Below are positions 5,441-47,231 of a stretch of DNA of 64,000 bases, in pieces; the stretch's first letter is position 1, and the number at the start of each line of letters is the position of its first letter. The DNA comes from Halobellus inordinatus (GTDB taxonomy: Archaea > Halobacteriota > Halobacteria > Halobacteriales > Haloferacaceae), in contig NZ_JANHAV010000003.1 in assembly GCF_024464655.1 (NCBI RefSeq), positions 62,001-126,000 on the forward strand. The letters are read 5' to 3'. A program made the position numbers and the translations under genes. The notes beneath the pieces are model-generated. The model did no database searches, was not told where the DNA came from, and saw only the letters and a program-made list of their open reading frames with translations.

Positions 5441-5483
5441 TCGCCGCGCCGTTTTTCCTCGGGTTATCGGCGCTCGCCGCCCG

Positions 5484-5762
5484 TCAGCGCGCTGACCCGC
5501 CGGTCACGGGCGGGAACATCGCGAGTTCGTCGCCGTCGGCCACCGACGCCGAGAGGTCCGCCGGCGAGCCGTTCTGCATCAGATTCACGTCGTCCGCGAG
5601 GTCCTCGCCGTCGAGAATCCGGTCGCCGAGTCCCTCACAGTCAGCCAAGAGCGCGTCGAGTGCGTCGCCGATCGTCGACTCAGCCTCGACAGAGACGGCG
5701 TGTTCGCGTCCGCCCGCCACCTCGGCGAGGTCGGCGAACAGTCGCCAGTTGATCGTGTGCAT
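5484..5762 (-). CDS. samp1: SAMP1/MoaD-type ubiquitin-like small modifier with C-terminal tail
   Basis: 92 aa, beta-grasp MoaD/ThiS fold, closely resembling Haloferax SAMP1 (for example the WRLFADLAEVAG start and the ELAMFPPVTGG end). The ATG at 5760-5762 is chosen because a GGAGGT Shine-Dalgarno directly precedes it and homologues start there; the frame runs further upstream without support. SAMP1-type proteins are adenylated on a terminal diglycine and attached to lysines or used as sulfur carriers for molybdopterin. Here the diglycine is followed by Ser-Ala-Arg before the TGA, so the mature GG end would need trimming. The gene is 31 nt downstream of a TrkA-C gene on the same strand. Confidence 0.88.
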   Translation of the reverse strand: MHTINWRLFADLAEVAGGREHAVSVEAESTIGDALDALLADCEGLGDRILDGEDLADDVNLMQNGSPADLSASVADGDELAMFPPVTGGSAR

Positions 5763-5793
5763 ACCTCCACTCGCGCGCCGGGCGAGTTGAGCG

Positions 5794-7014
5794 TTACGCC
5801 GCTGCGAGCGTTGCCACGTCGCGCAGCCGTTCCGGGCGGGCGACCAGATAGAGCGCGTCGCCGGCGGCGAGCGTGCGGCTCCGCGCCGGAATCGGCTCGA
5901 TCGCCCCACGCGTGGGGCGCACGGCGGCGACAGTGGCGTCGACGTCGCCGACCGTCGCCCCGTCGAGGTCGCTCCCGGCGCCGACGGTGACGACGTCCAT
6001 CGTCTCGTCGGCCGCGCGTAGCAGCGAGGTGAACTCCCGCTCTGCGCCGGGGTCGCTGGGGAGCGTGAGCAGTCGATAGGACGCCGCGGGATCGAGGTTT
6101 TCGGCGTCCGCCTCGTCGACGACGACGGTGGCAACGTCGCCGGTCACCGCCCGGAGTTCGCCGCTCGCGACGCGCGCTGCGGTCCCGCTCGCGCTCTCCA
6201 CCGCGCCCTCACCTGCCTCGGTCCGCCGCCACAACTGGACGGCGTCGCCCGCCGACGCGCCCGCCCCGGGGTCCGCCCGGACAGCGACGGCGGCAAAGCC
6301 GGGGGCGAGTGTCGTTCCGAGTCCCGCGACGCGCCGGCCCAGCCCGAGCCGCGTGACGGTGCCGTCGTCGTCGAGTTCGAGGTCGACGTAGCCTACGCCG
6401 TAGTCCTCCTTGATGCGCGCGACGACCCGGTCGCGGAGGGCGTCACCGCGGAGATTGCGGGGGACGAGCAGCGTCTTCCCGGCGAGCGCGTCCTTCGTCG
6501 CCGCCGGGACCGGCTCGTAGCCCTCGATGTCGTCGACGTCGGATTCGACCTCCGGGAGTTCGACGGCGCGGACGCGCCCGACGTTGCTCACGAGCCGGCT
6601 GACTTCGGTGTCGAGTTCGCGGACGCCGACGACGGCGAACGCGCTCGTGGTGAGCCGATCGCCGACCGCGCGTCCGGCGGGCGAGACGACGATTGCCGCG
6701 CCGAGCGCCGCCGCGTTGACGAGGACGACCATCGGGTCGAACACCGCCGCCGGGTCGGATCCGACGGCCTGCTGGAAGAGGCCCACGGCGTTGAGATACA
6801 GCGCGACGCCGGACGCCCCCGTGAGCGTCGCCAGCCACGCCGGGATCTCCTCGCGCGTGTACCAGCGATAGACGACCGCGGCAGCGGCAGCGACTATCGC
6901 AGCGACTGCTGCGAGCCCGACCACCCGAGTGAGCGCGCCGATCAACGACGGGTCCGCCGGGATGCTGTCGCCGAGTTGGAGGGGTGCTGTGAGCGCGACG
7001 CCGACTGAGGACAT
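5794..7014 (-). CDS. TrkA-C (RCK-C) domain membrane protein, downstream copy
   Basis: 406 aa. Three probable membrane helices fill the first about 125 residues, then a cytosolic region with segments resembling RCK/TrkA-C ligand-binding domains, for example the C-terminal PTRGAIEPIPARSRTLAAGD stretch ending in a typical TrkA-C beta strand. The ATG at 7012-7014 overlaps the upstream stop (TAATG), so the two paralogous genes are translationally coupled; longer readings of the frame add only basic shadow sequence. Such proteins are associated with K+ uptake or efflux control in haloarchaea, but no pore motif is visible here. Function is inferred from domain and context. Confidence 0.82.
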   Translation of the reverse strand: MSSVGVALTAPLQLGDSIPADPSLIGALTRVVGLAAVAAIVAAAAAVVYRWYTREEIPAWLATLTGASGVALYLNAVGLFQQAVGSDPAAVFDPMVVLVNAAALGAAIVVSPAGRAVGDRLTTSAFAVVGVRELDTEVSRLVSNVGRVRAVELPEVESDVDDIEGYEPVPAATKDALAGKTLLVPRNLRGDALRDRVVARIKEDYGVGYVDLELDDDGTVTRLGLGRRVAGLGTTLAPGFAAVAVRADPGAGASAGDAVQLWRRTEAGEGAVESASGTAARVASGELRAVTGDVATVVVDEADAENLDPAASYRLLTLPSDPGAEREFTSLLRAADETMDVVTVGAGSDLDGATVGDVDATVAAVRPTRGAIEPIPARSRTLAAGDALYLVARPERLRDVATLAAA

Positions 7015-8258
7015 TACGACGCCACCTCCGCGAACCGATCGAGCTCCGACGTGTTCCCGACGACGACGAGGTCGTCGCCCGCGGTGATCGACCGCGTCCC
7101 GCGCGGGGCGATAGCCCACGACCCGCCGTGTCTGACCGCCAGCACCGCCACGCCGTAGGTGTCCCGGACCGACGCCTCACCGAGCGTCGTATCAGCCAGT
7201 TCGCTCCGATCGCTGACCGTGACCCGCCGGAATCGCTTGCCCGTCCGGCGCAGGAGTCCGACCAGTTCGAATTCCCGGCGGCTCCCCCGCGAACGGACGG
7301 CGAGGCGGACGTCGTCCGCTCCGAGCAGCGAGGTCGCCGTCTGCCGATCGGTCGCGAGCGTGACTCGGGCGCGACCGCCGACGGCCGTGGGTATCGACTG
7401 CGTCTCCGGTGGGAGGTCTGCGTCGCCGCCGTCGGTGGCCGCCTCGTCAGTCGTGTCGGTCTCGGTATCCCCGGACGGAGTCGGCGTCGTTCCCCCGTCG
7501 ACGACGCCGAGGAGTCGCGCGTCGAACTGCTCGCCGTCCGCCAGAACGGTCACCTCGTCGCCACGCGCCGCGCCCGTCGGGATCAGCGCGTCGACCGAGA
7601 CGGCCCGCTCCCCGGGATCGAGGTGCTTCGAGAGCCCGCTCGTCGGCGGCGCGGCCGCGACCGTCGCCCGGCCGCGCTCGTCGAGCGTCACAGCGACTTC
7701 GACGAGGTGGTACTCGGTCCGGAGCGCGGCTTCGACGCGCGATTCCAGTTCGACGAGCGGGAGGTCGGCCGGAAACGTCCACGTCTCCGCGCGGATCGAC
7801 TCGTGGAGCGCCTCGGGGAGCGGCGGATACCCCTCGACGTCGCCGACGTCCCCAACGACGCTGATGCGGACCTGCCCGCGCCCGCCGACGAGTTCGACGA
7901 CGTCGGTCGAGAGCGTCCGCTTCGTGAGTTCCCGAAGGTTGAGCCGCTTCGGGAGTGCCGCCCCCATCTTATCGCCCTGTGCGTGGGCGTACAGCGTCCC
8001 CATCAGCACGACGAGCAAGGCGATCGTGAGCCGCAACTGGTTCGTCGACCCGGTGAGCGAGGGGTCCGCGAGCGCGAGGAGACCGCCGTTGAGCCCCGCG
8101 ATCGCGACACCGAGGCCGACGACCCCCAGCCCCGGGATCGTAATTCCGGTAAAGTATTTGAACCCGAACCCGAGCAGCCACGCGATGAGCGCGGGAACGA
8201 GCCCGGTCAACACGCCGAGGTAGAGTCCGTAGAGGACCTCGACAGGGAGCGACGCCAT
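7014..8258 (-). CDS. TrkA-C (RCK-C) domain membrane protein, upstream copy
   Basis: 414 aa from the ATG at 8256-8258 (MASLPVEVLY...), preferred over a GTG nine nt upstream because a GAGAGGTG Shine-Dalgarno sits at the right distance from the ATG. Three hydrophobic helices (about residues 8-100) precede a cytosolic part with two TrkA-C-like segments separated by an acidic Thr/Asp-rich linker. The last segment (TLGEASVRDTYGVAVLAVRH, then a GD-containing strand) is a typical RCK-C. It is paralogous in plan to the following gene and divergent from the K+ channel at 8379, suggesting one K+-responsive cluster. Confidence 0.83.
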   Translation of the reverse strand: MASLPVEVLYGLYLGVLTGLVPALIAWLLGFGFKYFTGITIPGLGVVGLGVAIAGLNGGLLALADPSLTGSTNQLRLTIALLVVLMGTLYAHAQGDKMGAALPKRLNLRELTKRTLSTDVVELVGGRGQVRISVVGDVGDVEGYPPLPEALHESIRAETWTFPADLPLVELESRVEAALRTEYHLVEVAVTLDERGRATVAAAPPTSGLSKHLDPGERAVSVDALIPTGAARGDEVTVLADGEQFDARLLGVVDGGTTPTPSGDTETDTTDEAATDGGDADLPPETQSIPTAVGGRARVTLATDRQTATSLLGADDVRLAVRSRGSRREFELVGLLRRTGKRFRRVTVSDRSELADTTLGEASVRDTYGVAVLAVRHGGSWAIAPRGTRSITAGDDLVVVGNTSELDRFAEVAS

Positions 8259-8347
8259 CGACGGCACCTCTCGGCCCGACGATTTACAGTTGTCGCTGCA
8301 TCGCCTTCCGGAAGCCGTGAAGCGGTCGCGCGAGGAAAATGACGAGA

Positions 8348-8355
8348 CTATTAAC
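8348..8355 (+). promoter_or_regulatory. TATA-like box of the K+ channel gene
   Basis: CTATTAAC about 27 nt before the ATG at 8379, the spacing expected for a leaderless haloarchaeal transcript. Confidence 0.5.
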
Positions 8356-8378
8356 CCAGAGACGACGCAGAGAGAGAT

Positions 8379-9635
8379 ATGGCGCTCTCGCGGGACTGGA
8401 TCGGCGCACGCGCGTCAGTCGTACTGACGTTCTTCGTCGGTGTCCTCGCCGTCGTGACCGGCATCGCCAACATCGGCGTCGGCGGCACGGCGGACTTTCA
8501 GCTGTTCGGCGTTGTCGTCTCCGGCGTCGTCCGCCAGATCACCGCCTTCACGGGGACGCTGACCGGGTTCCTGCTCCTCGTGAGCGCGTTCGGGCTTCGG
8601 CGACGCCTCCGCGCGGCGTGGTATGCGACGCTCTTCCTGTTTCCGATCACGGCCGCTCAGGGCGTCCTGCAGTCCTCGGAGCTGTCGCTACCGCTCGTGG
8701 CCCTCTCGGTGCTGGCGCTGCTCGTCGTCGGAGTGAACGTCCGCGCGTTCGACCGCGAACTGTCGCTGTCGACGACGCAGATCGCGTCGCTGGCGGCGCT
8801 CGCCGGCGCACAGGGCTACGGGACCGTCGGGGCGTACGCCTTACAGGAGGAGTTCAACGGCGTGAGCACGCTCCTCGACGCGTTCTACTTCTCGCTCGTC
8901 ACCGGCAGCACCGTCGGTTACGGCGACATCACGCCGCGCTCGGCGGTCGGCGAACTGTTCGCGCTGTCGGTGCTGCTCGTGACGGTCTCGTCGTTCGCGG
9001 TCGTCCTCGGTGTCGTCTTCACCCCACTCATCGAAGCGCAGTTCTCGAAAGCACTCGGACGTATGACAGAAGAACAACTCGACGTACTGGAAAACCACGT
9101 CCTCGTTCTCGGTTTCGGGGACCTGACGGAACCGATTCTCGAAGAACTCTCCTCGAAGGCCGACGTGCTCGTCGTCGTCCCCGACGAGGAGCGCGCCCGG
9201 CGGCTCTCGGACCGCGGCTACACCGTCCTCACTGACGATCCGAGCGACGAGGAGGCCCAGCAACGCGGGAAGGTCGAGGTCGCACAGGCCGTCGTCGCGG
9301 CGACGAACAACGACGCCGAGGACGCGCTCGCGATTCTGACCGCGCGCCAGCTCAATCCCGAGGTGACGATTGTCGCGGCCGCGACGCAGCGCGAGAACGT
9401 GAACAAGCTGAAGCGCGCCGGTGCCGACACCGTCATTAGTCCGGCGACGCTGGGCGCGCACTTCCTCGCGGAGTCCGCGCTCGGCGGCCACGGGGCCGAA
9501 GCGCTCGAAGAACGCCTGCTGGGTGCCGAGGGCGACGAAGACCTGGAGGCTGCCGCCGCAGCCGTTAGTGAAGCCGCTGATGGAGACGACGAGAATGGCA
9601 GCGAACGCAGCGGCGACGCCGACTCCGATCACTGA
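8379..9635 (+). CDS. Potassium channel with cytosolic RCK (TrkA-N) domain
   Basis: 418 aa. About six membrane helices (roughly residues 14-34, 56-73, 80-97, 103-122, 134-155, 192-217) with a re-entrant pore loop carrying the K+ selectivity signature TVGYGD at residues 178-183. The helices lack an obvious S4 row of arginines, so voltage gating is not supported. A Rossmann-like RCK domain starts near residue 240 (HVLVLGFGDLTEPILEEL) and binds nucleotides or ions in this family. The tail after residue 380 is acidic and low in complexity. The gene diverges from the TrkA-C pair and faces the HPP/UspA gene, pointing to K+ homeostasis. Confidence 0.93.
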   Translation: MALSRDWIGARASVVLTFFVGVLAVVTGIANIGVGGTADFQLFGVVVSGVVRQITAFTGTLTGFLLLVSAFGLRRRLRAAWYATLFLFPITAAQGVLQSSELSLPLVALSVLALLVVGVNVRAFDRELSLSTTQIASLAALAGAQGYGTVGAYALQEEFNGVSTLLDAFYFSLVTGSTVGYGDITPRSAVGELFALSVLLVTVSSFAVVLGVVFTPLIEAQFSKALGRMTEEQLDVLENHVLVLGFGDLTEPILEELSSKADVLVVVPDEERARRLSDRGYTVLTDDPSDEEAQQRGKVEVAQAVVAATNNDAEDALAILTARQLNPEVTIVAAATQRENVNKLKRAGADTVISPATLGAHFLAESALGGHGAEALEERLLGAEGDEDLEAAAAAVSEAADGDDENGSERSGDADSDH

Positions 9636-37062: not shown

Positions 37063-37983
37063 CTATTCGGTGCCAGTCTCTTCTTCGATCTTCCGCAGCG
37101 TGTCGCGGTGGAGCGTCAGAATCAGGTCTGCAAGCACGCCGAACATCAACAGTTGGACGCCGACGATGATACCGAAGGCGGCGACGACCGCGAGCACCTC
37201 GTGGGAGATGTTCCGCGTGATCCACTCGACCGCGACGTAGACGGCGACGAGGAAGCCGGTGAGGCTAGAGATGACGCCGAGGCTGCCGAAGTAAAACAGC
37301 GGATTGTTGGTCTTCGCGCGGCGGTAGAGTTCAAGGAAGATGATCCCGCCGTCGCGGACGGGCCGGAGGTTCGTATCCGACCCGGAGGGCCGCGGGAGGT
37401 ACGTGATCGGAACGACCGTCGTCGGGATCTTCCGTTTGGCGCACTCGACGGCCATCTCGGTCTCGATGCCGAACCCGTCGGAGGTGAGCGTCATCTTCAG
37501 GAACGAGTCGCGCGTGAACGCGCGGTAGCCCGAGAGGATGTCCTGGAAGTCCTCGCCGTGGACGGTCGCGAAGCCGCGGTTGATGATCCGGTTGCCGATC
37601 TGGTTGAAGCGCGTCATCGCGCCCTCGCGCATATCCGCGAAGCGGTCGCCGATGACGTGCTCGGCGTCACCCTCGAGGAGTGGCCGGAGCATCGCGTCGG
37701 CGTCTTCGACACGATAGGTCGCGTCGCCGTCGAGCATCAGCACGTACTCGCGGTCGACGTACTCCTCGACGCCCTCGCGAACGGCCTGTCCTTTACCTGA
37801 GCCCGACTGGTAGACGACGCGCGCGCCGTGCGCCTCGGCGATCTCGTCGGTGTCGTCGCCGGAGCCGCCGTCGACGACGAGCACGTCGTCGAAGCCCGCG
37901 TCTCGGAAGTCCTCAACTACCTGGCCGATCGTCTCGGCCTCGTTGTAGGTGGGCACGAGGACGCAGACGTCGTCGTAATCCAT
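37063..37983 (-). CDS. aglJ: AglJ-like dolichol-phosphate glycosyltransferase (GT2)
   Basis: 306 aa from the ATG at 37981-37983. A GT2 catalytic domain (VLVPTYNEAETIGQVVEDF, metal motif MLDGDATY) is followed by two C-terminal membrane helices. The layout and sequence match Haloferax AglJ, which puts the first sugar of the S-layer N-glycan onto dolichol phosphate. Its position at the edge of a glycan gene cluster supports that role. Acceptor and sugar remain inferred. Confidence 0.85.
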   Translation of the reverse strand: MDYDDVCVLVPTYNEAETIGQVVEDFRDAGFDDVLVVDGGSGDDTDEIAEAHGARVVYQSGSGKGQAVREGVEEYVDREYVLMLDGDATYRVEDADAMLRPLLEGDAEHVIGDRFADMREGAMTRFNQIGNRIINRGFATVHGEDFQDILSGYRAFTRDSFLKMTLTSDGFGIETEMAVECAKRKIPTTVVPITYLPRPSGSDTNLRPVRDGGIIFLELYRRAKTNNPLFYFGSLGVISSLTGFLVAVYVAVEWITRNISHEVLAVVAAFGIIVGVQLLMFGVLADLILTLHRDTLRKIEEETGTE

Positions 37984-38060
37984 CGTGCGGAGTGGGTCGT
38001 GCAGGGGTGAAAGTGATTCCGGAACAGTAGTGACGATCGCCGGTGGTCGACCAAGACATA

Positions 38061-38083
38061 ACACACCACGTTTTCACGTGAAC
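38061..38083 (+). repeat. Origin recognition box, ORB-a
   Basis: ACACACCAC, nine bases, then TGAAC. One of five copies of the 23-bp pattern ACACACCAC-N9-TGAA(G/C/A) around the orc gene. Confidence 0.85.
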
Positions 38084-38126
38084 AGTCGCGTGAAGAACCG
38101 CAGATCTTGGGAACGTGGTCGGTCAG

Positions 38127-38149
38127 ACACACCACGCTTTCGAGTGAAG
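38127..38149 (+). repeat. Origin recognition box, ORB-b
   Basis: ACACACCAC, nine bases, then TGAAG; same orientation as ORB-a. A G-rich string (38159-38167) follows it, as described for some haloarchaeal ORBs. Confidence 0.85.
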
Positions 38150-38177
38150 CCGCGAACAGGAGGGGGGACAGTAATTG

Positions 38178-38200
38178 CTTCAGTTGTAACGGTGGTGTGT
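38178..38200 (-). repeat. Origin recognition box, ORB-c (inverted)
   Basis: On the minus strand: ACACACCAC, nine bases, then TGAAG. It overlaps the 3' end of the orc coding sequence and faces ORB-a and ORB-b. Confidence 0.85.
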
Positions 38201-39427
38201 ATCCGTGATTCCGTTCATCTCCGCAATGTCACGAATCGTCTCGATTTCTCTGTTGAGTCGAAGAACGTCAGACATCGCCTTGATCGCGCTTGTGAAGGGG
38301 ACGTTTAGCTCGTAGCTGTAGTAGTTGCCGCGGGATCCACTTCGATTCTCGTGAGCAGTGAGAATCCCGAGCATCCGAAGGTCAGAGAGGTGGTTATGCA
38401 CTGAACGTTGCGTGAGTGTGTCTGTACCCGAGGATTCACACAGCGATCGGTACTCCTCGTAGAGCTCGCGCGTTCGACACGGCGTCGCCTCTTTCGCTGC
38501 CTTCGAGATCACGGCGAGCAGCGCGAGGCGTCCGTGGGTCGTCAGTTCGCGCATCCCCTCCTCGACACGCTCTTGTTCGAGACGGGCTCTCGCATCTTCA
38601 ACGTGCGTCGACGCGATGTGGTCGGCGTCGTCGTTCTCAGCGATTTCACCGGCGAGGCGCAGGAGGTCGAGCGCCTGTCGAGCGCTGCCGCTGTCGCGTG
38701 CTGCGAGCGCGGCACAGAATTCCACGACTCCCTCGCCGACCGCTCCGTCGGTAATTGCGGTTTCGGCTCGCGACGTGAGAATGTTCTCCAGTTCTGGAGC
38801 ATCGTACGGCGGGAACTGGAGTTCACGTTCACATAGGGTGTCCTGGACTCTCGGGTCGAGCTTTTCGCGAAATTTGAAGTCGTTACTGATGCCAATGACC
38901 CCGACTTTCGTCTCATCGAGCTTCCCGTTGGCACGGGCCCGCGGGAGTTCGTACAAGAGTTCGTCGCGTCCGCCGATGGAGTCGACCTCGTCGAGGACGA
39001 TGAGAACCGTGCCGCCGAGTGCCTCGAGTTCCTGATAGAGCTTCTTGAACACGGTTTGTTGGGGATAGCCGGTCGAGCTGATCTCGCCGCCCGTGGGACG
39101 GAGTTCGTTCACGAGTTCGACGGCGACCTGGTAGGACGAATTCAACGTTTTGCAGTTCAGCGAGATGACCGAGAGGTCGACATCGTCGTATGCGGCGACG
39201 TCTTCCTCAAGACGATCTAAGAGAAACTCGGTGACAGCAGTCTTTCCGACGCCGGTGTTTCCGTACAGAAAGATGTTATTCGGCTCCCACCCGTCGATCA
39301 CCGGCTGTAGGGCGTCCATATACTCTTGAATCTCGTCGTCGCGCTCTTCGATCTGCTCCGGTTGGTAAGATTCCCCGAGAGCATCTTTGTTCCGGAAGAT
39401 GTTCTGCTTCCGCTCGAAGTGGCGCAT
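38180..39427 (-). CDS. Orc1/Cdc6 replication initiator
   Basis: 415 aa AAA+ protein. Walker A GNTGVGKT at 56-63, Walker B VLIVLDEVDS at about 141-150, and a C-terminal winged-helix (about 325-390) for DNA binding. Start ATG at 39425-39427, preceded by an AT-rich TATAATA stretch. ORBs lie on both sides of the gene (ORB-a, b and c downstream; ORB-d and e upstream). This protein most likely binds its own locus as a replication initiator. Several paralogues exist in haloarchaea; which one this is cannot be told here. Confidence 0.95.
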   Translation of the reverse strand: MRHFERKQNIFRNKDALGESYQPEQIEERDDEIQEYMDALQPVIDGWEPNNIFLYGNTGVGKTAVTEFLLDRLEEDVAAYDDVDLSVISLNCKTLNSSYQVAVELVNELRPTGGEISSTGYPQQTVFKKLYQELEALGGTVLIVLDEVDSIGGRDELLYELPRARANGKLDETKVGVIGISNDFKFREKLDPRVQDTLCERELQFPPYDAPELENILTSRAETAITDGAVGEGVVEFCAALAARDSGSARQALDLLRLAGEIAENDDADHIASTHVEDARARLEQERVEEGMRELTTHGRLALLAVISKAAKEATPCRTRELYEEYRSLCESSGTDTLTQRSVHNHLSDLRMLGILTAHENRSGSRGNYYSYELNVPFTSAIKAMSDVLRLNREIETIRDIAEMNGITDTHHRYN

Positions 39428-39492
39428 ATCAGTGTTCTCTCTCGTACAGTATATAATACCACCCTTTCATTTGTTTCAGGTGGACCGCACAG

Positions 39493-39515
39493 ACACACCA
39501 CTATTGCAAGTGAAG
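39493..39515 (+). repeat. Origin recognition box, ORB-d
   Basis: ACACACCAC, nine bases, then TGAAG, upstream of the orc start. Confidence 0.85.
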
Positions 39516-39729
39516 CGCGATGTGTCGAGGCTGTATACGCAAACAGTCCACAGTTTCGACTAAAGCGCTGACATATTCGCCCAACTCTGTGCAGGCCTAG
39601 CACACGGATATGGGCACAGGTGTCGCTCACTGTGGACGCGAGTAACGCACGAGGACCAACAGCCGACTCGATTGATCCACTCCAGCAGCCAACCCTCGAT
39701 TGTCGTCCCCCACCCCCATCTGCTGGCAG

Positions 39730-39752
39730 TTTCACTTGAATCAGTGGTGTGT
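39730..39752 (-). repeat. Origin recognition box, ORB-e (inverted)
   Basis: On the minus strand: ACACACCAC, nine bases, then TGAAA. Faces ORB-d across about 215 bp. Confidence 0.85.
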
Positions 39753-39920
39753 CTGCGTTCGTCGCGGTTGTTGCGACTTGGAGTGGGTTCCTCCAGATCC
39801 AGAACAGACGAAACGAGGGGTGTGTCTCGCTTCGTATCACAGACAAACCGGCTGCGAAGGGGACGATGCAGCGATAGTAAAACCACAGTACCTATGCAAC
39901 GCTGTATCATCCGAGGCAGT

Positions 39921-41120
39921 ATGTACGGAGTCGTGCTCGCGGCCGGGCAGGGAACGCGGATGCGACCGCTGACCGACTTTCGACCGAAGCCGCTGCTTCC
40001 CGCCGGTGGTCGGCCGCTGCTCGAACACGTCTTCGACGCGTGTCTCGACGTCGTCGACGAGTTCGTCGTCGTGATCGGCTACCGCAGTGCGGACGTGATC
40101 GACCAGCTCGGCAACGAGTACCGCGGCGTGCCGATCACGTACGTCGAGCAGGGCGAGCCTGCCGGGACGGCACACGCGATCGGGCAGGCTGAGTCCGTCG
40201 TCGACGAGCGATTCGTCGTCCTCAACGGCGACGTCCTCGTCGATCCCGCATTGCCGACGGCGCTCGCCGACGCCGGTGGGCACGCGATCGCGACGACGCC
40301 CGTCTCGGATCCCACCTCCTACGGCGTCGTCTCTGTCGACACCGATAGCTCGCTCGAAGCCATCGTCGAGAAGCCCGCGGACCCGCCGACGAACCTCGCG
40401 AACGTCGGCTGCTACGCGTTCGAACCGGAGGTGTTCGAGTACATCGAACGAACGGCAAGGAGCGAGCGCGGCGAGTTCGAGATCACCGAGACGCTCGAAC
40501 TACTGCTCGATGACGGCCACGAGATCTCGGTCGTCGAGTACGACGGCCAGTGGCTCGACGTCGGCCGCCCCTGGGAGTTGCTGTCGGCGAACGAACGCGT
40601 GCTCGCGGATATCGGTCGCGACGTCCAGGGAGACGTCGCAGACGGAGCGAAACTGGAGGGCGATGTCGTCGTCGAGGAGGGTGCGACCGTTCGAGAGGGG
40701 GTCGTGATCGAAGGACCGGTCATCGTGAAATCGGGTGCTGAGATCGGGCCGAACGCCTACGTCCGCGGGGCGACGGCGATCGGACCGGACGTGCACGTCG
40801 GCCACGGCGTCGAGGTGAAAAACTCCATTCTGATGTCGGATGCGGCGGTGCCGCACCTGTCGTACGTCGGCGATTCCCTGCTCGGCCGCGACGTGAACCT
40901 GGGCGCGGGGACGAAAGTCGCCAATTTGCGCCACGACGACGCGTCGGTGCAGATGACGGTGAAAGGCGAGCGCGTCGATACGGGGCGGCGGAAACTGGGC
41001 GTGGTGCTGGGCGACGAAGTGAAGACGGGGATCAACGTGAGCCTCAACGCCGGGGTGAAAGTCGGAAGCGGCGTCGGGATCGAACCCGGAAAGACTGTTC
41101 TGCGCGACGTCGAGAACTAG
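39921..41120 (+). CDS. GlmU-like sugar-1-phosphate nucleotidyltransferase with LbH domain
   Basis: 399 aa from the ATG at 39921. N-terminal nucleotidyltransferase signature LAAGQGTRMRPLT (residues 6-18) and PKPLLPAGG, and a C-terminal left-handed beta-helix with hexapeptide repeats (about 235-390). Bifunctional archaeal GlmU-type enzymes acetylate glucosamine-1-P and make UDP-GlcNAc; the acetyltransferase part could also be structural. It faces the glycan cluster and sits between the origin and a decayed island. Confidence 0.88.
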   Translation: MYGVVLAAGQGTRMRPLTDFRPKPLLPAGGRPLLEHVFDACLDVVDEFVVVIGYRSADVIDQLGNEYRGVPITYVEQGEPAGTAHAIGQAESVVDERFVVLNGDVLVDPALPTALADAGGHAIATTPVSDPTSYGVVSVDTDSSLEAIVEKPADPPTNLANVGCYAFEPEVFEYIERTARSERGEFEITETLELLLDDGHEISVVEYDGQWLDVGRPWELLSANERVLADIGRDVQGDVADGAKLEGDVVVEEGATVREGVVIEGPVIVKSGAEIGPNAYVRGATAIGPDVHVGHGVEVKNSILMSDAAVPHLSYVGDSLLGRDVNLGAGTKVANLRHDDASVQMTVKGERVDTGRRKLGVVLGDEVKTGINVSLNAGVKVGSGVGIEPGKTVLRDVEN

Positions 41121-41356
41121 CACGGCCGTGTTTCCTCTGCGCCGTCGAAGCCGACTCGAATGGGGAAACAGGCTCCGAGATCGTTGGAAGCCAACTAGAT
41201 CGATCTGCCCGGTCAGTTTCGGATGTTCACAGGTCCCCGGGACCCGTTCGTTCACCGATACCGTCGAAATTGTCGGTGAAACTCGATACCCGAGGGTCTC
41301 CGCCCTTTAGGATCGTGGGCGAGTAATCGCTCGGCGGATAATCCTGGGAACAGTTA
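41121..41356. other. Non-coding 236-nt gap after the nucleotidyltransferase
   Basis: No gene is seen. A short hairpin CGCCC...GGGCG near 41300-41322, with a loop reading TTTAGG, resembles the right end of IS200/IS605-type elements but is too degenerate to call. Confidence 0.35.
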
Positions 41357-41388
41357 TTATGCACGCGATAATATTATCGTGTGCATAA
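41357..41388. promoter_or_regulatory. 32-bp palindrome spanning the start of the ATPase gene
   Basis: Sixteen-nt arms, TTATGCAC... to ...GTGCATAA, match in 15 of 16 positions. It runs into the A of the ATG of the following gene. The same 32 bases recur unchanged at 44309-44340 before a broken copy of the gene. Size and symmetry suggest a dimeric regulator site or autoregulatory operator. Confidence 0.8.
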
Positions 41389-42767
41389 TGATCGACCGAG
41401 ATGCGGAACTGGACTGGTTGCGCTCACATCTTGCTCGGGACGACCGTCAGTTGCTCGTTCTGTATGGTCGCCGTCGAGTCGGGAAGACAACGCTGGTGAC
41501 GACAGCACTGGATGCGATCGACACGAAATCAGTGTATTACCTCTGTGACCAGCGTGGAACCGCTCGCAATGCGGAACAGTTTGCTGCCCAATGTGCCGAT
41601 CAGTTCGACGACGTCACCCCTGCCGTCGACGGCTTTGTCGATGCGTTCCGATATCTCTCGAACCGCGTCGACGACGCCTGTATCGTCGCGCTTGATGAGT
41701 TCTCGTATCTCGTTGCGGAAGACGAATCGATCCCATCAGTGTTTCAGACGATTGTTGACGACGTCCTCGATGGCACGGAGATTTCGCTTGTCCTCCTCGG
41801 ATCGTCGATCTCGATGATGGAAGAAGGGGTGTTGAGCTACGAGAGTCCACTCTACGGCCGTCGAACCGGACAGTGGGAACTCACTCCGCTCTCGTTCGCT
41901 GATGCGCGGGCGTTTTTCGGCGACTACGATATCGAGACGCAGATCGAGGCCTACAGCGTCCTCGGTGGGGTTCCCGCATACCTCGAACAGTTCGATCCCG
42001 ACGCCTCGCTGCTGTCGAACATCGAATCGCACGTGCTCTCGAAAGGAGAATTTCTCTACGAGGAACCGGAGTTTCTGCTACGACAGGAACTCCGGGAGCC
42101 GGCGACGTATATGGCGATCCTCGAAGCGATCGCAGGCGGTTCGACCCGGGTGACGGAAATCGCCACCGAGATCGGCAAAGACGCCAGTAGCATCTCTCGG
42201 TATCTCAAGAATCTCTCGAAACTTGCGCTCGTGATTCGAGAGACCCCGGTCACCGACCCCGACGGCCGCGGTGTCTATCGGATTGCCGATGACTTTCTCC
42301 GCTTTTGGTTCCGATTCGTTGCGCCGAATCGCGGCGTCCTCGAACAGGGACGGACGGCCCCAGTCCGTCGGTCGATCGAGGAGGCATTACCAACACACAC
42401 GAGTCAGACCTTCGAGAACATCTGTCAGCAGGCCGTCGCGACGAGTGCGTTCCCGGTTGCGTGCGATCGTGTCGGCCGCTGGTGGTACGATGGTGCGGAA
42501 ATCGATGTCGTCGGACTGAACTCACAGACGGACACACTGCTGCTGGGCGAGTGTAAATGGACGAACGATCCCGTGGGTACGGGGCTTCTGACGGATCTCG
42601 AAGCCCTAACACCGGAGGTTCGATGGCATACTGGAGATCGGACGGTCGAGTACGCACTGTTTTCGCGATCTGGATTCACAGACGAGATCAAGGCACAGAC
42701 CGCGGACCGATCGGATGTGCATCTGTTCTCCGTGCGGGATCTCGAAGCCATCTTCGACGCCCCATAG
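41388..42767 (+). CDS. Archaeal ATPase of the AAA/DUF234 type
   Basis: 459 aa from the ATG at 41388. Walker A GRRRVGKT at 27-34, Walker B IVALDEFSYL (about 93-102), a winged-helix region (about 245-290) and a C-terminal PD-(D/E)xK-like nuclease module, seen as AEIDVVGLN...LLLGECKW. This is the common archaeal ATPase-DUF234 plan, often linked to mobile or accessory DNA, with unknown function. The start is taken after the palindrome; a GTG nine nt upstream is possible. A damaged copy of its 5' end lies 3 kb away. Confidence 0.85.
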   Translation: MIDRDAELDWLRSHLARDDRQLLVLYGRRRVGKTTLVTTALDAIDTKSVYYLCDQRGTARNAEQFAAQCADQFDDVTPAVDGFVDAFRYLSNRVDDACIVALDEFSYLVAEDESIPSVFQTIVDDVLDGTEISLVLLGSSISMMEEGVLSYESPLYGRRTGQWELTPLSFADARAFFGDYDIETQIEAYSVLGGVPAYLEQFDPDASLLSNIESHVLSKGEFLYEEPEFLLRQELREPATYMAILEAIAGGSTRVTEIATEIGKDASSISRYLKNLSKLALVIRETPVTDPDGRGVYRIADDFLRFWFRFVAPNRGVLEQGRTAPVRRSIEEALPTHTSQTFENICQQAVATSAFPVACDRVGRWWYDGAEIDVVGLNSQTDTLLLGECKWTNDPVGTGLLTDLEALTPEVRWHTGDRTVEYALFSRSGFTDEIKAQTADRSDVHLFSVRDLEAIFDAP

Positions 42768-42851
42768 TGCCTGCACTCTTCCCTCAAGCGAACCTCATTG
42801 CCGAATCTGATTCTCGTCGACGCAGCAACTTATAGAGATTCGAGGAAAATA

Positions 42852-43155
42852 CTGGTGGCTTCAGCCACCAGATGAATCCGACGATTTAAGTCACAAACCA
42901 CGTACTACGGACTGTGCGTGGAGAACTGGCAGTTGACTCGGTGTTTGCCACGGTTCGTAGCCGAAATCAAAAGGTAAGCCGCCCACGCCGACAGTCGTTA
43001 AACAATCAGGTAGCTCGAAGCCCTCTACAGGGTACGAGTAACGGCTTCGTGGCAAAGCCACTGGCTGACTGTCCAGCAAACCTTAGACTCCCAACCTTCA
43101 GGATTGACCTGCCCGGCCAACACCGGGTGGGAGGCCCCCGTCTTTAGCGCGGGAG
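42852..43155 (+). mobile_element. Gutted IS200/IS605-type element (non-autonomous) with RNA-like stems
   Basis: The left side starts with a perfect hairpin CTGGTGGC-TTCA-GCCACCAG (42852-42871), the typical IS200/IS605 left end. The right side ends with GCGCGGGAGGATGTCAC, the ending seen at the 3' end of haloarchaeal IS1341-type tnpB genes. In between I see several stems (CGAAGCC/GGCTTCG, CCCT/AGGG, TGGC/GCCA, CCCGG/CCGGG) and no transposase or TnpB reading frame. The boundaries are approximate. Confidence 0.6.
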
Positions 43156-43238
43156 GATGTCACGCGGCTGTTGACCTCCGCGTGAAGAGGAATCGTACGA
43201 GTATTGGGAAATGCGACGACTGGTATTGTTCTCCTGAC

Positions 43239-43257
43239 CAATAGAATTATTCTATTG
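43239..43257. promoter_or_regulatory. Perfect palindrome CAATAGAAT-T-ATTCTATTG
   Basis: Nine-bp arms and one central base, about 55 nt upstream of the damaged toxin frame. Likely the operator through which the toxin-antitoxin pair controls itself (inference). Confidence 0.6.
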
Positions 43258-43266
43258 TCCTGTAAA

Positions 43267-43279
43267 CCAATAGTATTGG
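43267..43279. promoter_or_regulatory. Second palindrome CCAATA-G-TATTGG
   Basis: Perfect 6-bp arms, 10 bp after the first palindrome, and it shares the CCAATA half-site. Adds to the case for a paired operator. Confidence 0.55.
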
Positions 43280-43312
43280 ATAGCTTCACTGACCGACGAC
43301 GATCTCAATGGT

Positions 43313-43674
43313 GTGAGCGAGGGGCAGAAGTACCCCGACGGGACCGTCGTCCGCGTGTTTTGTATGCGGACAGGCCGTGACGCGTACCCGTCTGGGTGGG
43401 CTTACAAGCTTCACTACGGCGCGACGGAGCCAGACCCGACCCGCACGCTTGATGATGGGACGATTCGTCGGTATCTCGAAAATCGGAGATTTTCGACGAC
43501 TCATCGAAACGGCGACGCCGTTTTCGAGACGACAACTCGCACGAGGACACGAAAGGGCACGAACTACACGTTGCACCGGACCCCGGCCCAGACAGCATTA
43601 TGTTCCCGGGAATGGTCGAACTCTGGGAACGGTTCTGGAGCGAGATCCCCAAATCCGAGTTCGAGGTCAAGTGA
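43313..43674 (+). pseudogene. Toxin gene of the TumE/DUF6516 type, broken by an insertion
   Basis: The first frame (from GTG at 43313) gives DGTVVRVFCMRTGRDAYPSG and YKLHYGATEPDPTRTLDDGT, then RRY, which match TumE-like proteins. The family then continues with Tyr-Asp-Asn-x-His. Here that continuation (DNSHEDTKGHELHVAPDP and ending with IPKSEFEVK) is found only in another frame from 43531. A 56-nt hairpin-rich insertion (43475-43530), not a multiple of three, separates the two parts, so no complete toxin can be made. The start codon is uncertain. Confidence 0.75.
43475..43530. repeat. 56-nt double-hairpin insertion inside the toxin gene
   Basis: Consists of two hairpins, TCGAAAATC-GGA-GATTTTCGA and CGAAACGGC-GAC-GCCGTTTTCG, joined by CGACTCAT, with outer ends TCTCGAAAA / TTTTCGAGA. 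Its borders are ambiguous by a few bases because GAC is repeated at the right edge. Confidence 0.7.
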
Positions 43675-43697
43675 GGCCACCACACACAGTGATACCT

Positions 43698-44147
43698 ATG
43701 AACGATACCACGCCGCCGTTGCACCCGATGGAGCGCGAACAGCTTCGAGCTGAATCAACCCTCGTCGTGACCGTGAAGTCCTCCAGTAAGTTCCACGTCG
43801 ACGTCACTGACGGGGTCGAGGCGCTCGAACGAGGCGATGCCGCGGATTCCACGCCGACGCTCTCGTTTACCAGCTACGACGATCTGATGGAAACGCTGAC
43901 GCCGCGCGTCCTCGATCTTATCGAAGCAATCCGCCGGGAAGAACCGACCAGCATCAACGAAACTGCACGTGTCGTTGACCGGGACGTGAAGAACGTCCAC
44001 CAGGAGCTCAGCCGGCTCGCCCAGCTGGGCATCATCTTCTTCGAGGAAGACGGCCAGCGTAAGCGCCCGGTCGTCTGGTTTGACGAACTCGTTATCAACC
44101 TCTCATTCGATCCAGAGGCTGGCGACACGGCCACTGCTGCGCCCTGA
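43698..44147 (+). CDS. HTH antitoxin partner of the TumE-like toxin
   Basis: 149 aa. Residues about 75-125 form a winged helix (EEPTSINETARVVDRDVKNV and following HQELSRLAQLGIIFF), as in the HTH antitoxins next to TumE-like toxins. The frame is intact even though the toxin upstream is broken. It begins at the ATG at 43698, 24 nt after the toxin stop. It probably binds the palindromes upstream. Confidence 0.85.
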   Translation: MNDTTPPLHPMEREQLRAESTLVVTVKSSSKFHVDVTDGVEALERGDAADSTPTLSFTSYDDLMETLTPRVLDLIEAIRREEPTSINETARVVDRDVKNVHQELSRLAQLGIIFFEEDGQRKRPVVWFDELVINLSFDPEAGDTATAAP

Positions 44148-44308
44148 CATCCCCACACGAGTGAACCGATGAGGTTTCGCCTCGCTACTCCTATAATCAG
44201 CGGGTTTCTGGTAGCCACAATCCTAATATTCGAAGCTCTCACCGTGATGATGTTTATCGTAGGGGAGAGGTCTATGAAGTCGACAGACGAAGTTTTCGCG
44301 AACAGCTG

Positions 44309-44340
44309 TTATGCACGCGATAATATTATCGTGTGCATAA
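44309..44340. promoter_or_regulatory. Second copy of the 32-bp palindrome
   Basis: Identical, base for base, to the palindrome at 41357-41388, including its single asymmetric position, in front of a dead copy of the ATPase gene start. Confidence 0.8.
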
Positions 44341-44477
44341 TGACTGAATAGAATGCGGAACTGGAGCGGTTGCACGCACATCTTGCCCGGGACAATCGTT
44401 AGTTGCTCGTTCTATTTGGTCGCCGTCGAGTTGGAAAAGCAACGCTGGTGACGATACGCTCAAAGATCGAGACACGT
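44340..44477 (+). pseudogene. Truncated, stop-ridden copy of the ATPase gene start
   Basis: Aligns with the first 138 nt of the ATPase at 41388. I count 21 mismatches in the first 114 nt, one indel later, and in-frame TAG codons at positions 4 and 21. Walker A reads GRRRVGKA instead of GKT. The rest of the gene is gone. Confidence 0.85.
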
Positions 44478-44510
44478 AGGCGCCGAGAGAGTAGAGGAAA
44501 GTCACAACGG

Positions 44511-44735
44511 ACATTCGTCTTTAGCTAAGATTGTCGGTAATAATTCGCTCTCTAAAGATGACTAACAGTATTGGCGGGCTGATTCAGTCCGTCGAGATGC
44601 CATACTGTATGAAATCAAACGATGAGGAGCGCTGGAAATGAGGGATTACGGTTCTTTGAGGTGCTGTTCGGACGGGACTCGGGCGTAAATCACAGCGATT
44701 CGGTATTACTATGAGTATTAACTAAAGACGGATGT
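44511..44735. mobile_element. 225-bp MITE with 18-bp inverted ends and 8-bp target duplication
   Basis: Left end ACATTCGTCTTTAGCTAA (44511-44528) and right end, read on the other strand, ACATCCGTCTTTAGTTAA (44718-44735) differ at two positions, and GTAATA recurs at the same depth (27-32) in both. CACAACGG flanks it exactly on both sides (44503-44510 and 44736-44743). No transposase fits inside. It lies at the 3' end of the flippase gene. Confidence 0.85.
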
Positions 44736-46156
44736 CACAACGGACTATTTTCGATCACCGTCGCTCGGAACTGCGCAGAGAGGCCGAACAGCGAGAGGAA
44801 GTACACCGTCGCGCCGACGGCCACGAGGAGAACCACCGTCGCGAAGTTGTGATTGAGACTCGTCGCCGTTTCCAGAATCGTCTCGGACCCGACGACGACG
44901 GCCGCCATCGCTACGGCGGCGACGAACTGCCGAGCGATTTCCCCGTACGGGATCGTGAAGTGGACTTCCGAGCGTAAGGCGGAGACTGCGAGGACGACGC
45001 CGAGCGCTGCGGACGCGGTTGTCGCCACCGCCGCGCCGACGACGCCCAGCGCGGATATCAACGCGACGTTCAGGACGACGTTCGCCGCGATGAACGCCGC
45101 GTTGATCCGGAATGCAACCCGCGGACGATCGATGCCGTTCAACGCGTTCAGGAGTTGCTTCTGATACCCGTAGAGCAGCGTCGCAAGAATCAGGATCCAG
45201 AGGACGGCCGCGCCCTGAACGAACTCCGGACCGTAAATACGGAGCAGCCGTTCGCCGAGCAAGAACCCGCCGAAGAGACCCGGGATCAGGATGAGGCCAC
45301 CGTACGTCAGCGAATCCTCGACGAGCCCAGCGACGGATTCTCTGTTGCCCTCCGCGTCGGCCCGGCTGAGTTCCGGGAAGAGCGTCGAGCTCACCGCTGA
45401 GTCGAACAGCGTGAGAAACTTCGCGATGCTCCAGGCCGCCGAGTAGACGCCGACGAGCGACGACTGGACGAACACACCCAAGAGCAGCACGTCGACGTCG
45501 TTGAACGACCGCGACTGGAGGCCGCCGATCCACGAGAACTTCGCGTACTCGTAGAGTGACTCGAAATGCTCGCGAGTCGGACGAGCGACACCGACCGAAA
45601 GCAGCGCGAGGCCGACGACGGCGACGAGGAAGTTCGCGATGGCGTAGCCCGCGATCATCCCGACCAGTTCGAGCCCGACGAAGACCAGCGCGATCTGGAT
45701 GATGCTGCGGACAGCGATCCCGACGGGGGTGAGCAACCCCGTGATGTGGACTTTCCGCTCGCCCTGCAGTGCCGAGTTCGTGAGCGATTGAAACAGTCCC
45801 AACAGCAGGAGCGCGACGACCAGCGGTGCGACCGGCTCGCCGACGTACGCGTTCACGGCCTCATCGAAGAGGAGCACGAGCGCACCGAGCGCGAGGCCGA
45901 GCGCCGCGACGACGAGTGCACCGGCAGTCGCGTACGCGGGCGTGTCTGTCCCCTCGCTCATTCGCTTGGTAATCGCCCCGGAGATGCCGAGGTTCCCGGC
46001 CAGCGAGAGCCACGCCACGACCGCGAGCACGAGGGCGTACTGCCCCAGTACGGCGGCTCCGAGGGTTCGGGCGAAATAGAGGGTCGCAACGAATCCCAGT
46101 GCCGAGCCGAGGAGCTTCGAGGCGAAGACGACGAAGGAGGTCTGGCCGATTCTCAT
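44735..46156 (-). CDS. Wzx/AglR-type polysaccharide flippase
   Basis: 473 aa with about twelve to fourteen membrane helices of the MATE/PST type (YGYQKQLLNALNGIDRPRVA is a typical loop). ATG at 46154-46156; upstream in-frame sequence is not homologous. It should move lipid-linked glycans across the membrane for N-glycosylation or capsule assembly. The stop codon borders the MITE, whose last base supplies part of TGA; the empty site would also read TGA, so the protein end is unchanged. Confidence 0.88.
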   Translation of the reverse strand: MRIGQTSFVVFASKLLGSALGFVATLYFARTLGAAVLGQYALVLAVVAWLSLAGNLGISGAITKRMSEGTDTPAYATAGALVVAALGLALGALVLLFDEAVNAYVGEPVAPLVVALLLLGLFQSLTNSALQGERKVHITGLLTPVGIAVRSIIQIALVFVGLELVGMIAGYAIANFLVAVVGLALLSVGVARPTREHFESLYEYAKFSWIGGLQSRSFNDVDVLLLGVFVQSSLVGVYSAAWSIAKFLTLFDSAVSSTLFPELSRADAEGNRESVAGLVEDSLTYGGLILIPGLFGGFLLGERLLRIYGPEFVQGAAVLWILILATLLYGYQKQLLNALNGIDRPRVAFRINAAFIAANVVLNVALISALGVVGAAVATTASAALGVVLAVSALRSEVHFTIPYGEIARQFVAAVAMAAVVVGSETILETATSLNHNFATVVLLVAVGATVYFLSLFGLSAQFRATVIENSPL

Positions 46157-46319
46157 CGTTGGGGACGGAACCGCGCGTGGCGTCGCTTGCGGTTCACAGC
46201 AGACATACGACGTCCGAGACGGATAAGCCGTCCCAAATGAGACGCCGGCGCGTTCCGTAATCGACGCCAAATACATCGATACACAATCCTTACGGTAGTT
46301 CGTTGGCATCGATCGGTCG

Positions 46320-47231
46320 ATGGATGTCTCCGTCGTCGTCTGCGCGTACGATCCGGACCAGTACGATGACCTCCGAGACGCGATCGAGAGCGTGCTGGCG
46401 CAGACGTACGACGACGTCGAAGTCGTCGTCGTGATAGATGGGAGCGACGAACTCTACGAACGGGTGCAGCGCGAGTATGGCGACGTCGACGGGGTCGTTC
46501 TCCACTGTAACGACTCGAATATGGGGCTCTCTCGGAGCCGGAACGCCGGGATCGAACGGAGCAGCGGTGACGTCGTGGCGTTCCTCGACGACGACGCCAT
46601 TGCCAGAGACGACTGGCTCGCAGAACTGGTCGACACGTACGAACGTCGGGACGCGATTGCGGCCGGTGGCCGGATGGCCCCGCGATGGGTCGCCGGCGAA
46701 CCCGAGTGGCTCCCGCCGGAGTTCTACTGGCTCGTCGGCGTCACTCACCGGGGCTTCCCGGAAGACGAACGCGAAGTCAGGAACACGTTCGGCTCGAACA
46801 TTTCGTTCAAACGCGACGTGTTCGAGGAAGTCGGCGACTTCGACCCCAACCTGGGCCGCCACGGCGACAGGCAGATTCAGGGCGAGGAGACGGAGTTGTC
46901 GGCGCGAATGTACGAGGCATTCGGGGAACGCGTCTGGTACAATCCCGATGCCGTCGTCGAGCACAAGGTGTTCGAGTATCGGACCGACCCGCGGTGGCTT
47001 CTCGAGCGGGCGTTCTGGCAGGGCTACTCGAAGCGCGTCCTCGAGGAACTCATCGACGACGCCGGCGGCGAGGAGGGGGCGTTCCTCTCGTATCTGCTGT
47101 TCGAGGGCTTGCCCGGCTACGCTATCGAGACAGTTCGGGATCGGTCGGTTGCGAGTGCGAAGAAGGGGCTATTTGCGACCGTTCTCACCGCGGCAGTCGG
47201 ACTCGGGTTCCTCTACGCGCTCGTTACGTAG
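46320..47231 (+). CDS. GT2 glycosyltransferase (AglE/AglG-like)
   Basis: 303 aa. GT-A fold with VVVCAYDPDQYDDLRDAIES and the metal triad FLDDDAI (near residue 89), and one C-terminal hydrophobic helix. It resembles AglG and AglE-type enzymes that extend dolichol-linked glycans. Divergent from the flippase and first of a + strand run into glmS. Confidence 0.83.
   Translation: MDVSVVVCAYDPDQYDDLRDAIESVLAQTYDDVEVVVVIDGSDELYERVQREYGDVDGVVLHCNDSNMGLSRSRNAGIERSSGDVVAFLDDDAIARDDWLAELVDTYERRDAIAAGGRMAPRWVAGEPEWLPPEFYWLVGVTHRGFPEDEREVRNTFGSNISFKRDVFEEVGDFDPNLGRHGDRQIQGEETELSARMYEAFGERVWYNPDAVVEHKVFEYRTDPRWLLERAFWQGYSKRVLEELIDDAGGEEGAFLSYLLFEGLPGYAIETVRDRSVASAKKGLFATVLTAAVGLGFLYALVT

Follow-up and report, generated by a model that had tools for sequence, protein, structure and literature searches.

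Halobellus inordinatus carries, between the genes aglJ and glmU, a module that is a well-supported candidate for an accessory orc1/cdc6-linked haloarchaeal replication origin. The window analysed here is a 64,000-nucleotide stretch (bases 62001-126000 of the 367-kb contig C17) of a genome of 3.41 Mb in 23 contigs. The module probably combines an initiation core upstream of its orc gene with an initiator-titrating array downstream, belongs to a mobile family (OrcA), and most likely took the place of an origin of another family (OrcB) in situ. Origin modules of this mobile kind are known; what the sequence suggests to be new is the aglJ-glmU site, the apparent swap and a fossil ORB of the other family (ORB-B). 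No description of the locus or of Halobellus origins was found in the open-access literature.

The orc1/cdc6 gene and its ORBs

The module contains the following features, with positions given in the window:

38061-38082, plus strand: ORB-a, downstream array; exact match, PWM 29 bits
38127-38148, plus strand: ORB-b, downstream array; exact match, PWM 32 bits
38160-38167, plus strand: G-run GAGGGGGG between ORB-b and ORB-c, read from the sequence
38179-38200, minus strand: ORB-c, downstream array (its first ORB), overlaps the stop codon of orc; exact match
38180-39427, minus strand: orc1/cdc6 initiator gene (OrcA family), 415 aa; TIGR02928, 466 bits
39459-39484, plus strand: ORB-g, half of an ORB directly next to the TATA element of orc; block TTCACTTGAAACAGATG..GGGTGGTTTTATATA conserved across the 24 aligned upstream regions
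39493-39514, plus strand: ORB-d, inner ORB of the putative upstream core (-87), convergent with ORB-e; exact match, PWM 36 bits, position conserved
39543-39564, plus strand: ORB-f, a degenerate sixth ORB; PWM 20 bits, within a conserved block of about 32 bp, GTCAGCGCTTTAGTCGAAACTGTGGACTGTT (orc sense)
39707-39717, minus strand: G-rich run GGGGGTGGGGG just inside ORB-e, read from the sequence
39731-39752, minus strand: ORB-e, outer ORB of the putative upstream core; exact match, PWM 34 bits, position conserved

The orc gene, one of several Orc paralogs in the Halobellus genome, encodes an intact Orc1/Cdc6 protein well over 300 aa long with AAA+ and winged-helix domains. Its match to TIGR02928 far exceeds the cut-off of 181 bits, both Cdc6_lid and Cdc6_C (winged helix) are present, and relatives in the PDB include 2qby_A (E 2e-72) and 2v1u.

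Five sites around the gene match the pattern ACACACCAC-N9-TGAA with 0 mismatches, as an earlier note on this DNA had claimed, and their strands agree with the orientations given there for three ORBs at the 3' side and two at the 5' side; the unit, however, counts 22 bp (9+9+4) and not 23. From base composition, 0.0009 exact matches would be expected by chance per window and 0.05 per genome. There are 0 exact matches elsewhere in the 3.41 Mb and one match with a single mismatch, and a genome-wide scan with a reversed control pattern gave 0 matches. A position matrix was built from the ORBs lying at most 1.2 kb from orc at 33 loci, namely the window and 32 homologous orc loci (consensus ACACACCACTGTTGCAAGTGAA). 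Only six sites in the window score above 5 bits with this matrix: the five exact ORBs at 29-36 and ORB-f at 20, the next best score in the 64 kb being 4. ORB-f, the promoter half-site at 39459-39484 and the other-family ORB at 39801-39826 had all gone without mention in the earlier note.

The overlap of ORB-c with the coding end of orc, also proposed before, is borne out: the frame runs six codons into ORB-c (THHRYN) and stops at its TGA. In homologs, the first downstream ORB abuts or follows the orc stop codon, with direct abutment in many of them, and a stop-codon comparison with 32 homologs shows that the ancestral stop codon is gone in the window.

The upstream region

The intergenic region next to orc contains an inverted ORB pair, the convergent ORB-d and ORB-e, with the degenerate ORB-f between them. 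The typical layout in homologs, in the orc sense, is an outer ORB at about -290 (+), a degenerate one at about -138 (-) and a strong one at about -88 (-). ORB-f has the same position in nearly all homologs, and ORB-e lies at about -325 versus -290 in most of them. In an alignment of 24 upstream regions, the blocks at the ORB sites are strongly conserved and the spacer is not. These blocks are kept even though the upstream region of the window is 54-60% identical to those of other homologs, which argues that they are under constraint. Orc would bind ORBs on both flanks of its own gene, with ORB-e, ORB-f and ORB-d serving as the initiation core. Judged from its place at the promoter, where the orc TATA element occupies 39450-39458, ORB-g is probably an autoregulation site through which Orc would control its own transcription.

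Runs of G adjoin both ORB-e and ORB-b, as the earlier note had seen and as expected for the G-string of haloarchaeal origins. Both begin about 11-13 nt past the TGAA end of their ORB, and in about half of the homologs a run of G lies 10-17 nt inward of the outer ORB. Lying on the TGAA side, these runs may represent an internal G-rich element rather than a canonical G-string, and the run at ORB-e is reminiscent of the G-rich repeat inside H. hispanica oriC1, which has been described as an enhancer.

Like the module, oriC1-cdc6A has a G-rich element enclosed by inverted ORBs on the upstream side of orc, but it uses its own ORB, canonical TTCC..GAAACGAAGGGGTGGGGG, unlike that of the window. Assignment of the module to oriC1-cdc6A was rejected: its ORB differs from the canonical TTCC..GAAAC..AGGGG, and an oriC1-type locus is found elsewhere, on contig C16 at about 37-40 kb, where an orc other than that of the module lies between canonical oriC1-type ORBs (TTCCAGTTGAAACGAAGGGGTGGGGG). 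Another orc of this genome (locus L004, G000 C20:10198-14307) is accompanied on one side by numerous ORB-like sites, TTCACCGGAAACACGGTGTGTG, and is another candidate ORB-rich origin.

The downstream array

ORBs occur 3' of orc in nearly all homologs, usually with one inverted relative to the rest. The window has three directly downstream of the gene, in the manner of an oriC2D-type array, which is fewer than in most homologs. The earlier note had allowed for either two origin cores or one core plus a regulatory cluster; the layout inherited across the 33 loci favours the latter, a single upstream core with a downstream cluster. Strong ORBs on both flanks of orc, including an inverted pair, would also be expected if each flank held an independent core, and some haloarchaeal origins do sit downstream of their orc, although the core lies upstream in most of those characterised (PMC3528665). 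Two cores are nevertheless very unlikely: the inverted downstream pair is merely 30 bp apart, the downstream ORBs being packed so closely that little space is left between them for a melting region; their number and spacing vary widely among homologs, whereas the upstream layout is largely fixed; and oriC2D, a downstream array that has been dissected experimentally, lacks ARS activity (PMC3936714).

In H. hispanica, oriC2D is not deletable alone, lowers plasmid copy number and represses its origin, which was read as initiator titration (PMC3936714). By analogy, ORB-a, ORB-b and ORB-c probably titrate the initiator, sequestering Orc and thereby limiting firing. The module shares with oriC2-cdc6E/oriC2D a core upstream of orc, a separate ORB cluster directly downstream, and the status of an accessory chromosomal origin beside oriC1. 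This likeness is one of layout, and oriC2D counts 11 ORBs over 722 bp versus three in about 140 bp in the window. Two-sided ORBs (PMC3528665) and downstream negative control (PMC3936714) have both been documented in haloarchaea; the comparison made here shows the two-sided layout to be conserved across an origin family.

The OrcA family and the status of the origin

Orc proteins at least about 80% identical that share the same ORB are placed in one family (80% threshold, PMC3528665). The Orc of the window is 79-87% identical to most OrcA members, the lowest value being 74%. OrcA is found across haloarchaeal families on both plasmids and chromosomes. The Orc of H. marismortui pNG500 (RR_RS00925) is 85% identical to that of the window and has ORB-A on both sides, but this origin is plasmid-borne and has six downstream ORBs (23-37 bits) versus three. 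On a 41-kb Haloplanus plasmid, an OrcA protein is the only Orc homolog and the only annotated initiator, which supports a replicator function for the family.

Within Halobellus the family is patchy, its ORB cluster being present in one of the 16 congeners tested, Halobellus clavatus (G007). The Orc and upstream region of the latter are nearly identical to those of the Natrinema pellirubrum plasmid pNATPE01, which points to recent transfer. The OrcA module travels as one unit between plasmids and chromosomes of haloarchaea. The Orc protein tree leaves the position of the window's protein unresolved, and no relative of it was found in viral contigs. A contig labelled as a Mollicutes MAG (PUOX01000009.1, L034) carries a haloarchaeal Orc (79% identical) together with its ORBs and is thus probably mislabelled or contaminated.

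The earlier view of the locus as a likely replication origin stands for an orc-adjacent origin, given the anatomy conserved in 33 loci and the plasmid with this Orc as its sole annotated initiator. The concern that orc might lie on a silent element is not supported: contig C17 has eight tRNA genes and genes usual for a chromosome, aglJ among them, and is therefore taken as chromosomal. GC skew, computed both across the window and along all of contig C17 (367 kb), has a cumulative minimum near the locus. There are comparable minima at other places, and the curve rises where a low-GC island of about 45 kb lies, so that the skew is uninformative on the origin.

The Orc and its sites could also have been kept while firing was lost in this chromosome, and haloarchaea often have dormant or inactive origins (PMC3528665). 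The GC skew has no convincing origin signature, and the low AT content of the spacer between ORB-e and ORB-d fits such dormancy. The spacer is 42% AT, the level of the orc gene, with 60% in its best 30-bp stretch; homologs range from 39 to 63%, so that the window lies below many but not all of them. The reduced number of downstream ORBs and the lost ancestral stop codon point the same way. However, the Orc domains are complete, ORB-d (36 bits) and ORB-e (34 bits) fit the family consensus, and the conserved upstream blocks are retained. A decayed origin is thus somewhat unlikely, though it deserves serious weight beside the favoured reading of an accessory origin with its core upstream.

Apparent origin exchange at the aglJ-glmU junction

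The module and its chromosomal surroundings are delimited as follows:

37063-37983, minus strand: aglJ (S-layer N-glycosyltransferase), left neighbour; TIGR04182, 462 bits, cut-off 325
38025-39875, no strand: apparently exchanged segment; blastn breakpoints 38024 and 39876 against G015
39801-39826, plus strand: putative fossil ORB-B; 26/26 identical to the G015 ORB (blastn)
39921-41120, plus strand: glmU-type archaeal sugar-1-phosphate nucleotidylyltransferase/acetyltransferase gene, right neighbour; TIGR03992, 534 bits, cut-off 292

In four congeners, namely G008, G010, G012 and G003, aglJ and glmU are separated by 116-203 bp. In the sister species G015, the closest congener tested, the same junction holds an orc of a different family, 45% identical to that of the window and flanked by five copies of another ORB, ORB-B (AACAGACGAAAYGAGGGGTG). 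Among the aglJ loci examined, orc lies beside aglJ in these two genomes only. DNA flanking the segment is 88-90% identical to G015, and within it the 26-bp ORB-B is the sole DNA similarity, the two orc genes being related as proteins only. The left breakpoint is also where homology to the empty-site congeners G008 and G010 ends.

ORB-B of the window is the only match in its genome at up to three mismatches and lies at the same site, in the same orientation and on the same glmU side as in G015. None of the Orc proteins in the window's genome exceeds 45% identity to that of G015. The retention of an ORB-B copy in a genome without a close relative of its Orc suggests in situ origin replacement at aglJ-glmU. 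We infer that the common ancestor had an OrcB origin. In the lineage of the window, an OrcA module would have taken its place, with a single ORB-B surviving on the side of glmU.

In its own family, ORB-B is mostly clustered to either side of a gap about the size of an orc gene, and an OrcB-type gene lies between the clusters in G015, G009 and G023. A reading of ORB-B as a dispersed repeat, prompted by a few flanking bases common to some lone copies in G046, was not preferred because of this arrangement. An ORB-B-type site also flanks a more distant orc (31%) in G017. At locus L180 (G009 C1:1962000-1977000, about 4560-9230), a broken orc made of OrcB-type fragments is flanked by two ORB-B, which shows that OrcB-type origins decay. 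At locus L177 (G045 C82, 5453-5790), three ORB-B sites, arranged in inverted orientation to one another, lie in 11 kb that contain no orc like either query family; they could be orphans or an origin whose initiator acts in trans. Searches of plasmid and phage DNA with the stretch around the window's ORB-B returned nothing relevant.

Since a few other genomes have solitary copies of ORB-B but no close OrcB, the fossil may have come another way, either as part of an acquired composite module with two ORB types or as an independently acquired copy. Two unrelated ORB types near one orc are documented for Hla_3512 and HQ2959A (PMC3528665). There, however, both types form candidate origins, whereas in the window the second type is a single copy that the sister species explains. 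ORB-B is missing at the other OrcA loci of Halobellus clavatus (G007), G022, G029 and G036, and G017 carries the two families on different contigs. With G015 having ORB-B at the very same site, such an acquisition appears improbable. Independent insertion of different origins at aglJ-glmU, as at a hot spot, is likewise doubtful. Other cargo does occur there, namely a phosphomutase-like gene in G014 (by sequence reading) and a helix-turn-helix gene with a second gene in G006 and G002, and variable regions of Haloarcula chromosomes carry alternative origins (PMC4441112); but among the aglJ loci examined, orc is confined at this junction to two sister species, and the window carries the ORB of the other's family.

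Replacement in situ therefore remains the preferred reading. It recalls oriC3-cdc6D and cdc6i of Haloarcula, origins added, deleted or disrupted between close species in chromosomal variable regions (PMC4441112). Those losses are linked to transposases or the regions are broad, whereas the window offers base-level breakpoints, one intergenic gap and a fossil ORB. Origin turnover in the cited papers was deduced mainly from presence or absence and transposase scars; the locus provides a base-level example of an apparent origin swap at a fixed chromosomal site. More tentatively, modules of unrelated specificity might be exchangeable in place, perhaps via recombination at or near ORBs, such that the site stays an origin with a new initiator and a new recognition code, and lone foreign ORBs mark the events. 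Should the swap at this locus be confirmed, orphan ORBs could help to trace how origins have turned over in archaeal chromosomes.

The low-GC island (53-61% versus about 66%) starts at the orc module, covers window positions 38000-64000 and continues to about 145 kb of C17. It holds sugar and glycosylation genes, including a flippase-like gene (44735-46309) and an AglG-type gene (46320-47231). The glmU and flippase genes are adjacent in G010 and G015; in the window they are separated by an extra insertion (41120-44735) with a DUF234 ATPase gene (41379-42767) and an HVO_A0114-type regulator gene (43377-44147).
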